Of a stretch of 64,000 nt of DNA, positions 52,900 to 57,529 are shown in pieces; positions within the stretch are counted from its first letter, which is position 1; the number at the start of each line of letters is the position of its first letter. The notes under the pieces are model-generated. The model was not told the DNA's origin. It was given only the letters and a program-made list of their open reading frames with translations, and did no database searches. The stretch spans positions 1,736,001 to 1,800,000 of the forward strand of contig NZ_AP018549.1 of NCBI RefSeq assembly GCF_003584685.1, written 5' to 3'. The position numbers and the translations under genes are program-made. This stretch comes from Lactobacillus paragasseri (GTDB taxonomy: Bacteria; Bacillota; Bacilli; Lactobacillales; Lactobacillaceae).

Positions 52900-52903
<4 letters not shown>

Positions 52904-53748
52904 TTTTCTTCTCCGTGTACGATCTTGTTAATATGTATAGCTAAATACATAATTTCTTCATTGTTTAATTCATAATTGTATTTTTCCGAAATATACTCTT
53001 TTATCTTCAAAGCACATTTATAAGCTTCAATATCACTATTTTTTATTACATTTAAAATTTCTCTACTTAAGTCTCCAAAGCTTGATTGATCTTTTTTATA
53101 CATCATTGCCTTCCAGAAGAACTTCAAATGAACGGCAAAACGATTATAATTTAAGGATTGATAGTCAATATCAATATGAAAATAGTATCTAACAATCTTA
53201 GTAATTGACTTTATAAAATCAACAGATTTACTAAAGTCACTGATATCATTCCCAAGCTCTCCACTAATGATATGTACCGCAATAAAACCTGCTTCATCTT
53301 CTGGAAAATTCAAATCAAATTGCGCATCTAACAACTTTAAAGCCCATAAACCATATCTGTATTCTTTTGGATAGTAATTTTTAACTTCCCAAATAAATTT
53401 ATTACTTAAATACAAACCCTTTTTCGCTCTTTCTACACTTGTAGCAAGGTGATCTGTCAAAGTAATATATACACTATCAGCTAATTCGATATTCTCTTCA
53501 TGTTTCAATCTATCCACAATTTTTTGTGAAATTTGAAAGAAAATAGGATCTGTTTCATGAATTGTCTCTAGCAATAACTTTCTTTGACTATCAGACAATG
53601 GCGTAAAAATTTTATATATCTTCCGCTTATCAAACTCATCCCCAACTTTTTTACCATAAGCAATACCTTTACCAAGAGCTATAATTTCTTCATGATCTTG
53701 GTTTTCACTAATCACAGCGCTATTGTTTAAAATTCTAGTTATCTTCAT
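52900..53748 (-). CDS. licT: BglG/LicT-family transcriptional antiterminator
   Basis: 282 residues. The RNA-binding CAT domain (1-55) has ILNNSAVISENQDHEEIIALGKGIAYGKK. PRD1 and PRD2 carry the regulatory histidines in TDHLATSVE, AVHIISGE, AVHLKFF and LAIHINKIV. Phosphorylation by the PTS controls dimerisation, and the active dimer binds the RAT hairpin and prevents early termination. It is first in licT-bglP-bglA, directly behind such a leader, so it controls its own operon. AAAGGAGG precedes the ATG. Confidence 0.95.
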
Positions 53749-53768
53749 CTTGCCTCCTTTAAAGCAAC

Positions 53769-53810
53769 AAAAAAGCCCACTTAGCCCTTTATCAACAGGG
53801 TTAAGTGGGT
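53769..53810 (-). terminator. Leader terminator of the licT-bglP-bglA operon
   Basis: Stem ACCCACTTAACCC/GGGCTAAGTGGGC (one mismatch) with a 10-base loop and TTTTTT on -. It lies 20 bases before the licT ATG inside the leader, so it must be overcome for expression. Its 5' arm shares bases with the RAT element. Confidence 0.92.
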
Positions 53811-53835
53811 TTTGTGCAAAAAGTTGCTACAATCT
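53808..53835 (-). promoter_or_regulatory. RAT ribonucleic antiterminator (LicT/BglG target)
   Basis: On - it reads AGATTGTAGCAAC, TTTT, then TGCACAAAACC. It fits the BglG-family RAT pattern (ATTGT near the 5' end, a small hairpin, and CAAAACC at the 3' end). The last bases overlap the terminator stem, so RAT and terminator are mutually exclusive. Confidence 0.85.
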
Positions 53836-53859
53836 CACTACATTCACTTTTCGCATATT

Positions 53860-53896: not shown

Positions 53897-54574
53897 TTAT
53901 CCTTTTTTCAAACTTAAACGTCCATCTAACATTTCATAGATTTTATCAGAATACTTATTAAGCCTTAAATCATGGGTAACTAAAATAATTGCCTTTTCTT
54001 TTTGTTTAGCTAGGCTTTTAAATAATTTTCCTACTTCTTCAACTTTTTCACTATCTAACGAAGCTGTAGGCTCATCAGCTAAAATAATTGCTGGATCTGC
54101 ATATAGAGCTCTTGCGATTGCAACTCTCTGCTGCTGACCACCAGATAATTCTTTAGGATATTTATTTATTAATTGCATAATTCCTAATTCATTTAATAAA
54201 TTATCCAATCTGTCTTTACTCATATTGCCACTTTTTTTAACTTTATCTACTAAAATAAATTGCTCTTTAACAGTCAAATATGGCACCAAATTATAAGCTT
54301 GAAGTACAAAGCCTATTTTATCTAATCTTAAGGCATCAGCTTGTTTAGGCGAATAATTCGTTACATCTTTTCCACCAATAAAAACTTCACCAGAAGTAGG
54401 TTTCTGAAGGGCTCCCGCAATCGTTAAAAAAGTACTCTTACCAGCTCCGGAAGGACCTTCAATTAGAACAACTTCTCCCTCTTTAGCTTCAAAGTTCACA
54501 TCTTTAAGAGCGTCGACCTTAGCATTTCCTTGGCCGTATGATTTACTGATATTTTTTAATTCAATTACTGACAT
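53897..54574 (-). CDS. hrtA: Heme-efflux-type ABC ATPase (HrtA-like)
   Basis: 225 residues of the MacB/LolD-type ATPase class: Walker A GPSGAGKST, signature LSGGQQQRVAIARAL, Walker B IILADEPTASLD, H-loop VTHDLRL. It is last of a three-gene operon, TetR regulator, permease, ATPase, in the same order as hrtRBA of Lactococcus lactis, which expels toxic heme. Size also matches HrtA (about 220). It begins 17 bases after the permease stop. Without the context it would be called a generic antimicrobial-peptide-type ATPase. Confidence 0.75.
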   Translation of the reverse strand: MSVIELKNISKSYGQGNAKVDALKDVNFEAKEGEVVLIEGPSGAGKSTFLTIAGALQKPTSGEVFIGGKDVTNYSPKQADALRLDKIGFVLQAYNLVPYLTVKEQFILVDKVKKSGNMSKDRLDNLLNELGIMQLINKYPKELSGGQQQRVAIARALYADPAIILADEPTASLDSEKVEEVGKLFKSLAKQKEKAIILVTHDLRLNKYSDKIYEMLDGRLSLKKG

Positions 54575-54591
54575 ATAGAACTTTTCCTTCC

Positions 54592-55644
54592 TTAAACAGC
54601 CTTTGAAGGGTCAACTTTAAGAATTGATTTAATTGGAATCAAACCACCGATTATTCCCATTAAAATCATCCCAGCAAAAGTCGAAATCATAATCCATGGT
54701 GCAAAATTAATTGGCACAGTAGCCGGCATCACGCTAACTGTAATGAGCATCAGAATATATGCTAAAACCGTACCTAAAATCACCAAAATAAGCGATTGAC
54801 TTAACGTTGCGCCAATTAAAGTCTTGCTTGGAATTCCTTGTGCTCTTAAAACCGCATAATTTGGCATCTTTTGCATCGTTAAAATATATAAAAATACCGC
54901 AATAATAATTAATGAAATTACGAACAAGAAACCAATCATTAATTCAAAAGTTGAATTTTGAGCAGTATAGCCGGGCAACTTATTAATAAAAGTTTGCTTG
55001 TCATAAGATTTAACATTCTTAGCTTTGAAATCTAGGTTCTTTTTAGAAATAATCCCAGAAGCTTCAACATTTGGGGCCATTGGACGTAATTTTCTCCAAG
55101 TTGCCATCGTACCATAAGCAATTGGAGCGATATTAATTTTGGCATTTTTTAAGAAACCAACAATTTTATACTTTTGATCACTTCCATTTAAGGTAACTTT
55201 ATCACCCAGACGATAACCGCGATCCCACATAATTTGATCAACAGCTATTTCATTGTTATGTCTAGCTTTTCGACCAGAAACAAGTTCTAAATCTTTATAT
55301 ATGTATTCGTCTTTCTTTAAACCGACAAATTGAGCAGAAATCGTCTGATGTTCCTTCTCTTTAACCACAATAGGTACTAAGCCAACGAAGCTATCATTAC
55401 TGGTCTTTTTAAAGTCTTTCAAATCTGCCTTAGTAAGAAGTGACTGACTCAAACTTACATTAGCATTGTCATTCAATACAACTGATTTTGTTTGCCAACT
55501 GTTAACTGCCTGCGTATTTTGCGAAGCTAAACCAACTGCTAGCGATGAAAGCATAAAAATTAAATATGAAATTAAAAAAATCATCAAAGTAATTAAGCCA
55601 TAACGCAATTTTTCGTATTTTATTTCTTTTAAAGCTAAAAACAT
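54592..55644 (-). CDS. hrtB: Heme-efflux-type ABC permease (HrtB-like, FtsX fold)
   Basis: 350 residues with one helix near the N-terminus (LITLMIFLISYLIFMLSSLAVGL), an extracellular domain of about 190 residues, and three C-terminal helices (FLFVISLIIIAVFLYILTM, SLILVILGTVLAYILMLI, MISTFAGMILMGIIGGL). This four-helix MacB/FtsX-type topology and length match HrtB (about 350). The motif PNYAVLRAQGIPSKTLIG is the usual coupling-helix region. Partner of the ATPase at 53897. The identification rests mainly on operon order and the operator sequence. Confidence 0.75.
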   Translation of the reverse strand: MFLALKEIKYEKLRYGLITLMIFLISYLIFMLSSLAVGLASQNTQAVNSWQTKSVVLNDNANVSLSQSLLTKADLKDFKKTSNDSFVGLVPIVVKEKEHQTISAQFVGLKKDEYIYKDLELVSGRKARHNNEIAVDQIMWDRGYRLGDKVTLNGSDQKYKIVGFLKNAKINIAPIAYGTMATWRKLRPMAPNVEASGIISKKNLDFKAKNVKSYDKQTFINKLPGYTAQNSTFELMIGFLFVISLIIIAVFLYILTMQKMPNYAVLRAQGIPSKTLIGATLSQSLILVILGTVLAYILMLITVSVMPATVPINFAPWIMISTFAGMILMGIIGGLIPIKSILKVDPSKAV

Positions 55645-55650
55645 TTTTGC

Positions 55651-56172
55651 CTACTTTCTTTGCAATAAACATAAACTTTCATGATAACGTTTAAGGATTT
55701 TTGCTTTATTCTTTTTATCAAACAAGGCTAAATCGATTGCTTCATGAGTTAAAACCATCGCAGCCCAAACTTGAGAGTTCAAATTTAGAAAAGCATCTTT
55801 TTGCTTCTCATCTTCTCCTATAAAGGCTTGATTTTGACTAAGGTGCAATTTAATTAAATCAAAATAAATACTATTTTCTGTCTGATCAATAAAATTAACA
55901 GTCATCTTATAAAAAAATTCTGGGTCAAATTCTTTTAGCCTTGTTGGTGGTCCCATATGGACCTCTTTCATTGCTAAACTATAGAGATAACCATATGCAT
56001 CTTTTAAATCTCCAAAATATTTATAAAATGCTCCCCTAGCAATACCTGCATCCTTTACAATCCGCGCTACTTGAGCCTTAGCTAAAGGATAAGTACTAAA
56101 TTCTTTCAAGAGTGCCTGTGCAATTTTTTGCTTTTTTTCATCCGATAGATTTATAAATGTTTCACTAACCAT
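55651..56172 (-). CDS. hrtR: TetR-family regulator, HrtR-like heme sensor
   Basis: 173 residues. The N-terminal HTH is unusual for TetR: AKAQVARIVKDAGIARGAFYKYFGDLKDAYGYLY, as in the HrtR group. Histidines H72, H110, H143 and H164 lie in the ligand domain. Lactococcus HrtR uses H72 and H149 as axial heme ligands, so H72 and H143 are the likely pair here. The gene is first in the operon, and its promoter carries two identical palindromes TGACACCGTGTCA, nearly the reported lactococcal HrtR operator core (TGACACAGTGTCA). Expected behaviour: repressor that releases DNA on binding heme. Confidence 0.8.
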   Translation of the reverse strand: MVSETFINLSDEKKQKIAQALLKEFSTYPLAKAQVARIVKDAGIARGAFYKYFGDLKDAYGYLYSLAMKEVHMGPPTRLKEFDPEFFYKMTVNFIDQTENSIYFDLIKLHLSQNQAFIGEDEKQKDAFLNLNSQVWAAMVLTHEAIDLALFDKKNKAKILKRYHESLCLLQRK

Positions 56173-56186
56173 ATCATTTCCTCTTG

Positions 56187-56199
56187 TGACACCGTGTCA
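56187..56199. promoter_or_regulatory. hrtR operator copy 1
   Basis: Palindrome TGACAC-C-GTGTCA in the leader, 15 bases before the hrtR ATG and downstream of the transcription start. Confidence 0.85.
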
Positions 56200-56215
56200 T
56201 TTTTAATACAGCTTA

Positions 56216-56244
56216 AGTTTATTCTTAAAGTGACACCGTGTCAA
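56216..56244 (-). promoter_or_regulatory. hrtRBA promoter
   Basis: On -, perfect TTGACA (56239-56244), 17 bases, TAAACT (56216-56221). Operator copy 2 overlaps the -35. Confidence 0.82.
56231..56243. promoter_or_regulatory. hrtR operator copy 2
   Basis: A second identical TGACAC-C-GTGTCA overlapping the -35 hexamer. The two copies are 44 bases apart start to start, about four helical turns. Confidence 0.85.
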
Positions 56245-56293: not shown

Positions 56294-56893
56294 TTATGCT
56301 AAAACTCGATTATAGTAAACTAAAGTACCAAATTCTTGGTTAATATCCAATTCTGCTAGTCCACAATTTTGCATTTGATCAAAGCACTTAATATCACCAT
56401 TAGTTAAAAAGTGAGCACAAATCATTCTACTTACCACACCATGGCAGACTACTAAAACTGTGTCAGTTTAATGCTTTTGGTACAAATCATCAAAGAATGA
56501 AGCAATTCTTCGTCTGAAATCTTCTCGTTTTTCAACGTCTGAAGCATACTTATAAATATTATCGGTAATTAGACCTTTTTTATTAAAAGCATCTGGATAC
56601 TTCTTCCGATATTCAAACGAAGATTTTCCATCCCAAGAACCATAATTTAATTCTTCAATTCGCTTATCGGTTTTGATTGGAGTTTTATTACCTACAAAAA
56701 TTCTGGCAGTTTCTTGCGCTCTTTTTAAAGGACTAGCATAAACTGCATCAAATTGACTAGGATCAAAATTTTTAGCTGCTTTTTCTGCATAAGCACGCCC
56801 TTCTTCGCTTAGATCGGGATCAACGCTTGATCCTTGAATCATCCCTTGCTTGTTCAATTCAGTAGTTCCATGACGTAAAATTACTACTCTCAT
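56294..56893 (-). pseudogene. Histidine phosphatase family protein, interrupted by an in-frame stop
   Basis: The full frame would encode 199 residues. TAA at 56468-56470 ends translation after 141 residues. The first part has the phosphohistidine motif LRHGTTELN and YASPLKRAQETARIF. After the stop the same frame continues as TDTVLVVCHGVVSRM, which contains the second catalytic His, to a natural TAA at 56294-56296 just before the terminator. A single base change (for example AAA or CAA to TAA) explains it. The 141-residue product lacks the second catalytic His and is probably inactive. It is a tandem paralogue of the intact gene upstream. A sequencing error is possible. Confidence 0.88.
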
Positions 56894-56902
56894 AAAATCT
56901 TA

Positions 56903-57529
56903 TTACCTCTTAGTTCCGTAATATAAAGGCTCTGTCCGATTAAATGTCATTAACCGTGGTCGCTCAATATCATCTTTTTCAAAATGAAGTTCAGTAAAAC
57001 TGACATTTCTGACTGTCATTACATCTTCAATTTTTAGTTTAAACCATCTAGCTATTAAACTCCTAATTACAAAACCATGACAGACAACCATAATCGTTTT
57101 GTCATTAGAATATGGTTGAATTTCAGCTAAAAATTCTTCAACTCGATCAGCTACCTGCTCAAAAGTTTCGCCATTTTTAGCATATTTTGTATATTTGCTA
57201 TTGATGGTTCCTAAATCATCAAATGCATCTGGATATTTTACCTTCAATTCTTCCGCATGTTGACCTTCCCATGAACCGAAATCCATTTCTTTAAGCCGAT
57301 CATCAGTAATAATATCTTTTTGAAAATCAGTTAAAATCTGCGCCGTTCTTTTAGCACGAATTAAGGGACTAGCATATACTTGGTCAATTTTATTATTATC
57401 AATTATTTTACTTACTTCTTCTACTTGTTTCACGCCAGCTTGGCTTAAGTTAGGGTTACTAGTACCGCCGGAGATTACATCTGAAGTATTGTGCTCACTA
57501 ACTCCATGTCTCACTAATAACAAATCCAT
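56903..57529 (-). CDS. Histidine phosphatase family protein (phosphoglycerate-mutase-like)
   Basis: 208 residues. Catalytic RHGVSEHN at the N-terminus, ASPLIRAKRTAQIL, Glu-containing MDFGSWEGQHAEEL, and the second His in VVCHGFVIRSLIARWF. This is the broad phosphatase branch (PhoE/CobC type) rather than glycolytic mutase, judging by length and motif context. The substrate is unknown. It is followed 9 bases later by its broken paralogue and is divergent from the esterase gene. Confidence 0.9.
   Translation of the reverse strand: MDLLLVRHGVSEHNTSDVISGGTSNPNLSQAGVKQVEEVSKIIDNNKIDQVYASPLIRAKRTAQILTDFQKDIITDDRLKEMDFGSWEGQHAEELKVKYPDAFDDLGTINSKYTKYAKNGETFEQVADRVEEFLAEIQPYSNDKTIMVVCHGFVIRSLIARWFKLKIEDVMTVRNVSFTELHFEKDDIERPRLMTFNRTEPLYYGTKR

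Follow-up and report, generated by a model that had tools for sequence, protein, structure and literature searches.

A 64,000-nucleotide stretch of the Lactobacillus paragasseri genome (contig NZ_AP018549.1, positions 1,736,001 to 1,800,000; hereafter, the window) carries a three-gene operon that is very probably hrtRBA, a heme-responsive repressor with its heme efflux pump, previously characterized in Lactococcus lactis. Its genes, on the minus strand (53897-56172), encode first a TetR-type regulator, then a permease and finally an ATPase, as a preliminary description made from the DNA alone had proposed, and they are separated by only 6 bp (regulator-permease) and 17 bp (permease-ATPase). 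The further proposal that this is the lactobacillar counterpart of the lactococcal operon is supported by a best match of the regulator to HrtR, by alignment of the heme ligands and by a permease that matches HrtB. The sequence itself shows the order of the genes, the promoter, the operators, the ligand residues and the protein family. We regard the operon as a well-supported and mostly expected relative of the known lactococcal system, and the novelty is limited to membership of the lactobacilli, an extra operator at the -35 box of an HrtR-type system, and the loss of this operator in one clade. The features of the operon are as follows (all on the minus strand):

56231-56243, putative operator O1, an exact 13-bp palindrome overlapping the -35 box
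56216-56244, sigma-70-type promoter TTGACA-17-TAAACT, its position conserved across relatives
56187-56199, putative operator O2, an exact 13-bp palindrome located in the leader, after the promoter and ahead of the ribosome-binding site
55651-56172, hrtR-like TetR repressor, predicted to sense heme (173 amino acids; PF00440, best PDB match L. lactis HrtR)
54592-55644, hrtB-like FtsX-type permease (350 amino acids; PF02687, best PDB match Corynebacterium diphtheriae HrtB 7w78)
53897-54574, hrtA-like ABC ATPase (225 amino acids; PF00005, MacB/LolD-type)

Regulator and permease compared with HrtR and HrtB

The regulator has a TetR-type N-terminal DNA-binding domain (PF00440, scoring 28 bits where the cut-off is 24), and no NCBIfam family scored above its cut-off for either the regulator or the permease. 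When all solved structures were searched with phmmer, L. lactis HrtR (3vok/3vox/3vp5) ranked first (E 8.9e-15), and a profile built from 11 lactobacillar regulators matched HrtR at E 2.7e-24 over 171 of 174 positions. Passages of two papers give H72 and H149 as the heme ligands of HrtR (PMC11442138, PMC12839281) and R46 and Y50 as its DNA contacts (PMC12839281). In the HMMER profile alignment (inspected visually) and in each of three MAFFT runs, H72 and H143 of the window regulator fall on H72 and H149, which agrees with the assignment made in the preliminary description, and R46 and Y50 are present as the same residues with the same numbers. The window protein is shorter than HrtR and has diverged in its C-terminal half, with H143 in place of H149.

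We compared these residues in the best 80 of 291 regulator relatives from named genomes, a set of closest relatives rather than a random sample, and in seven of the 11 genomes that were matched with the L. lactis HrtR sequence (hereafter, lactococcal-type). Two of the seven lactococcal-type regulators are 97% identical to L. lactis HrtR and the others 51-84%; these matches came from the family of genome G303, and none was found when the genus and family of G568 were searched for lactococcal HrtR. H72, H143, R46 and Y50 are identical in all 80 lactobacillar and all seven lactococcal-type regulators. The closest named relatives listed are an uncultured Lactobacillus metagenome-assembled genome (91% regulator identity), L. 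johnsonii and L. taiwanensis (both 90%), in a scan that may lack entries very close to the genome of the window; the regulator of one same-genus genome is 97% identical. A regulator match at E 1e-6 was present in 213 of 301 Lactobacillaceae genomes, which is an upper bound because the weak matches cover the N-terminal part only.

The permease matched C. diphtheriae HrtB (7w78) best among solved structures (E 5.6e-23, residues 1-349), a likeness over its whole length at about 24% identity, and is about 32-35% identical to the four lactococcal-type permeases compared. At E values up to 0.01, the genome had no second permease match. Across the 80 loci, a script found a permease after the regulator in 79 and an ATPase in 78, and the two loci without an ATPase end within 1 kb. 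The window thus shares with L. lactis hrtRBA its gene order, a regulator encoded inside the operon, both heme histidines and the R46/Y50 pair.

Weighing heme against other substrates

Several observations weigh against assigning the operon to heme. We found no direct evidence on heme for such an operon in any lactobacillus, and most of the identity between the window regulator and HrtR falls within the DNA-binding half. Across the order, other TetRs outscored it against HrtR (best E values from 1.6e-33 to about 1e-19, versus 1.3e-15), and similarity alone is therefore weak evidence. Eight of 11 control TetRs (L116-L126, the best-scoring matches given loci, L115 apart) lack the histidine pair, seven having neither histidine and one the second only. 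Sites of the form TGACA...TGTCA also occur upstream of TetRs that lack the pair, so that the operator by itself is no proof of heme sensing. A lactococcal paralogue, moreover, slightly outscored the hrtR-operon permease against the window permease in three of four genomes (e.g., 209 versus 190 bits in G655; the fourth genome shows the hrtR-operon permease only). In a permease tree (35 sequences, thinned; very long C. diphtheriae root branch), the approximately unbiased (AU) test rejected neither grouping at 0.05 (P = 0.0601 and 0.127), so that the tree decides neither for nor against orthology to lactococcal HrtB. Finally, the window permease has Gln229 in the column of C. diphtheriae Glu219, a heme ligand of that HrtB according to passages of PMC11442138.

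The controls also indicate which evidence is specific. At least one upstream site within two mismatches was present for nine of the 11 control TetRs, and R46 and Y50 are kept in all 11, eight of them without the histidine pair; hence, the two DNA contacts are not specific to heme sensors. Both histidines occur in three controls (L116, L119 and L121). In a quick regulator tree, which carries a long-branch warning, the eight TetRs lacking the pair are separated by a branch (SH-aLRT support 92) from all carriers of the pair. Judged by these sequences, the operator type extends beyond heme sensors, and what points specifically to heme is the histidine pair. No convincing HrtBA match was found within the 2.5-3.5 kb examined around L115, L116, L119 and L121, all of which have the histidines. 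Locus L115 (1001-2065, reverse complement) encodes a TetR with both heme histidines, preceded by two exact palindromes and followed by an uncharacterized membrane protein instead of HrtB.

The column of Glu219 is occupied by Gln in 70 of 76 lactobacillar and seven of seven lactococcal-type permeases aligned, among them the neighbors of the regulators that share 97% identity with L. lactis HrtR; the other six lactobacillar permeases, all from Lentilactobacillus, have Glu. Since the Gln is shared with lactococcal-type HrtB, the change is no argument against export, and Glu219 is not a defining residue of HrtB in lactic acid bacteria. The second HrtB-like permease of G655, the one genome of the three whose neighborhood was listed, comes with an ATPase of its own, and none of the listed open reading frames (ORFs) is a TetR. 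Such second HrtBA-like transporters of lactococcal-type genomes, at L142 (3026-4784; no adjacent TetR) and at L143, resemble the lactobacillar permease slightly more closely than HrtB does.

Alternatively, the operon could have the architecture of HrtR systems but respond to and export another hydrophobic compound, such as an iron-free porphyrin, a bile component or a plant phenolic. TetR relatives that share the operator and lack the histidines do exist in the order, and the permease, devoid of the C. diphtheriae glutamate, resembles to about the same degree a lactococcal paralogue with no TetR next to it in G655. A sensor of a non-heme compound, however, would not need the two heme ligands, which every one of the 80 lactobacillar loci retains, and Gln replaces Glu219 in all seven lactococcal-type HrtB proteins too. 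We therefore consider a non-heme substrate unlikely.

Far less probable still is that an exporter of bacitracin or peptides (BceAB/MacB-like) resembles hrtRBA by chance. This reading would be compatible with the ATPase, which matched the ATPase chains of 7w78 and 7w7a among other PDB entries and, taken alone, resembles LolD, BceA, MacB and HrtA about equally; the ATPase was rejected as evidence for heme since it matches many exporters. The preliminary description had named a closer likeness of the transporter to such exporters than to HrtBA as evidence against its proposal. The 350-amino-acid permease, however, matched HrtB from end to end, far ahead of MacB (E 0.11), with no bacitracin permease (BceB) in the solved-structure search, and the regulator is of the HrtR type. 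By the residues compared, the operon belongs with the lactococcal HrtR-HrtBA systems, and it would work in the same way.

Promoter and operators across relatives

On the coding strand, the leader reads TTGACA overlapping O1, TAAACT, O2, AGAGGA (which fits a ribosome-binding site) and ATG, with the -35 TTGACA at 56244-56239 and a 17-bp spacer before TAAACT. This is the promoter noted in the preliminary description. The pattern alone occurs at chance frequency in the region (11 found versus 10.6 expected), and its assignment gains weight because the placement of TTGACA and the -10 box recurs in relatives. The two palindromes, one on the promoter and one in the leader, are exact copies whose starts lie 44 bp apart, also as described previously. 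No Rfam element matched between 48000 and 62000 at gathering thresholds, and Rfam elements were rejected for this interval.

A search of the whole genome (1.94 Mb, a single contig) for the palindrome TGACACNGTGTCA, a check that had been proposed with the original observation, returned two exact places, both at this operon, and one place with a single mismatch (G000:C1:1330417). The latter was rejected as a regulon member as it lies inside a 177-amino-acid ORF, which by eye, with no search made, we take to be an exonuclease. In the relatives, sites are strongly concentrated upstream of the regulator. The 120 bp preceding it in the 80 loci (9.6 kb) hold 68 exact operators and a further 46, 21 and 9 with one, two and three mismatches, respectively, whereas the remaining 572 kb hold 0 exact, 0 one-mismatch, 6 two-mismatch and 124 three-mismatch operators. 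With up to two mismatches allowed, every locus has at least one site and 53/80 have at least two; the latter count is 61/80 with up to three mismatches, 40/80 with up to one and 15/80 with exact copies.

These counts bear on whether the palindromes are repressor sites at all, rather than chance sequence or an mRNA hairpin. Although the leader copy would form a short inverted repeat in RNA too, the -35 copy would fall upstream of the transcript, the only two exact copies in the genome are at this operon, and two set places are kept across genera with not one exact or one-mismatch copy elsewhere in the 572 kb, so that chance or a hairpin is scarcely credible.

Among the 60 two-site loci (those with a pair of sites within the last 100 bp when three mismatches are tolerated), TTGACA overlaps the upstream palindrome in 59, and a -10 box with at least four of six consensus letters, at the best of three spacings, is present in 58. 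The O1-O2 spacing ranges from 30 to 45 bp (36-45 bp in 58 of the 60). Such variation, by nearly a full helical turn, favors two independent blocks over a loop of fixed phase. The clamping of the promoter by the two operators, suggested earlier, is hypothetical.

The leader operator TGACACnGTGTCA is common to the lactococcal-type hrtRBA loci and the window, which has two exact copies of it. All seven lactococcal-type loci have a single operator, which starts 34 to 56 bp upstream of the start codon, in the region of O2. As these loci carry the leader operator only, the -35 copy is a real difference between them and the window operon. A regulator tree indicates that lactobacilli generally have two sites, with six changes in all. 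The largest single-site group comprises 14 loci (L058, L061, L063, L065, L069, L071, L072, L075, L077, L080, L081, L082, L084 and L098), including those of L. apis, L. kimbladii, L. melliventris and L. helsingborgensis, which are honeybee-gut species. This clade has kept the leader operator and lacks a good -35 operator: 13 of its 14 members have a single site, and L080 has a second site only with three mismatches. Since it is one clade, an effect of host and shared ancestry are inseparable for the loss. In Ligilactobacillus animalis and L. murinus, the -35 site alone is kept.

Paired operators have a precedent in Enterococcus faecalis. According to passages of PMC7858072, FhtR/hrtBA combines a TetR heme sensor (as predicted for the window) and an HrtBA pump with two palindromic operators per promoter; either operator alone suffices for repression, and loss of one eases induction. 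The likeliest interpretation, by analogy, is that the pair in the window follows the same logic as the FhtR pair. The regulators differ: FhtR is unrelated, has Tyr132 as its heme ligand and is encoded by a monocistronic gene beside hrtBA, whereas the window regulator is of the HrtR type and its gene opens the operon, with 6 bp between it and the permease gene. Natural variation across the 80 loci with one or two operators provides a ready series on the role of a second operator. More tentatively, and with considerable doubt, lactobacilli may possess a two-lock hrtRBA in which the -35 lock was lost in the clade including the honeybee-gut species, operator number being tuned to host blood heme, and in which the pump, as in lactococci, holds heme without the C. 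diphtheriae glutamate.

Proposed mechanism, heme physiology and neighboring loci

Heme binding, release and export are proposed here by analogy with HrtR and HrtBA of other bacteria. In the absence of heme, TetR dimers would occupy one or both palindromes, O1 covering the -35 box and O2 in the leader, and block the shared promoter. Cytoplasmic heme, held between H72 and H143, would cause the repressor to leave the DNA, and repressor, permease and ATPase would then be made together, the latter two pumping heme out of the membrane. With two sites rather than one, repression would be tighter and the heme threshold higher.

The genome encodes cytochrome bd subunit I, adjoined by ORFs that we take to be cydB and cydD, and has no match to ferrochelatase or to heme catalase. 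A cell with cytochrome bd and no ferrochelatase match should depend on outside heme, and the cytochrome means that the organism uses heme besides having to guard against it. The operon is thus best read as a putative overflow valve of a heme user. Gut and vaginal lactobacilli can meet blood heme. How lactobacilli take up heme is not known, according to the passages of a study on respiration in L. johnsonii and L. gasseri (PMC5811513), in which the words "hrt" and "efflux" are absent. Nor do heme, hrt or YgfC occur in the passages of a regulon survey (PMC3616900). More broadly, no description of hrtRBA in lactobacilli was apparent in the open-access literature covered (titles, starts of abstracts, and passages of PMC7858072, PMC12839281, PMC11442138, PMC3616900, PMC5811513 and PMC2858704), a negative that does not demonstrate absence. 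The way in which lactobacilli handle heme is poorly documented, and a heme-gated promoter native to these bacteria would serve as a ready heme sensor in such hosts.

Two neighboring loci were also noted. Just upstream of the regulator, a phosphoglycerate-mutase/phosphatase-like gene (56468-56893, minus strand) ends early at an in-frame stop, a position that is open in four relatives (L034-L037); a paralogue lies at 56903-57529. Beyond the ATPase is a LicT-like antiterminator gene (52900-53748; 281.6 bits with the LicT model, below the cut-off of 300). Upstream of it, at about 53765-53840 on the minus strand, is a hairpin with a T run that had no Rfam match, and the stretch before this hairpin resembles a ribonucleic antiterminator.
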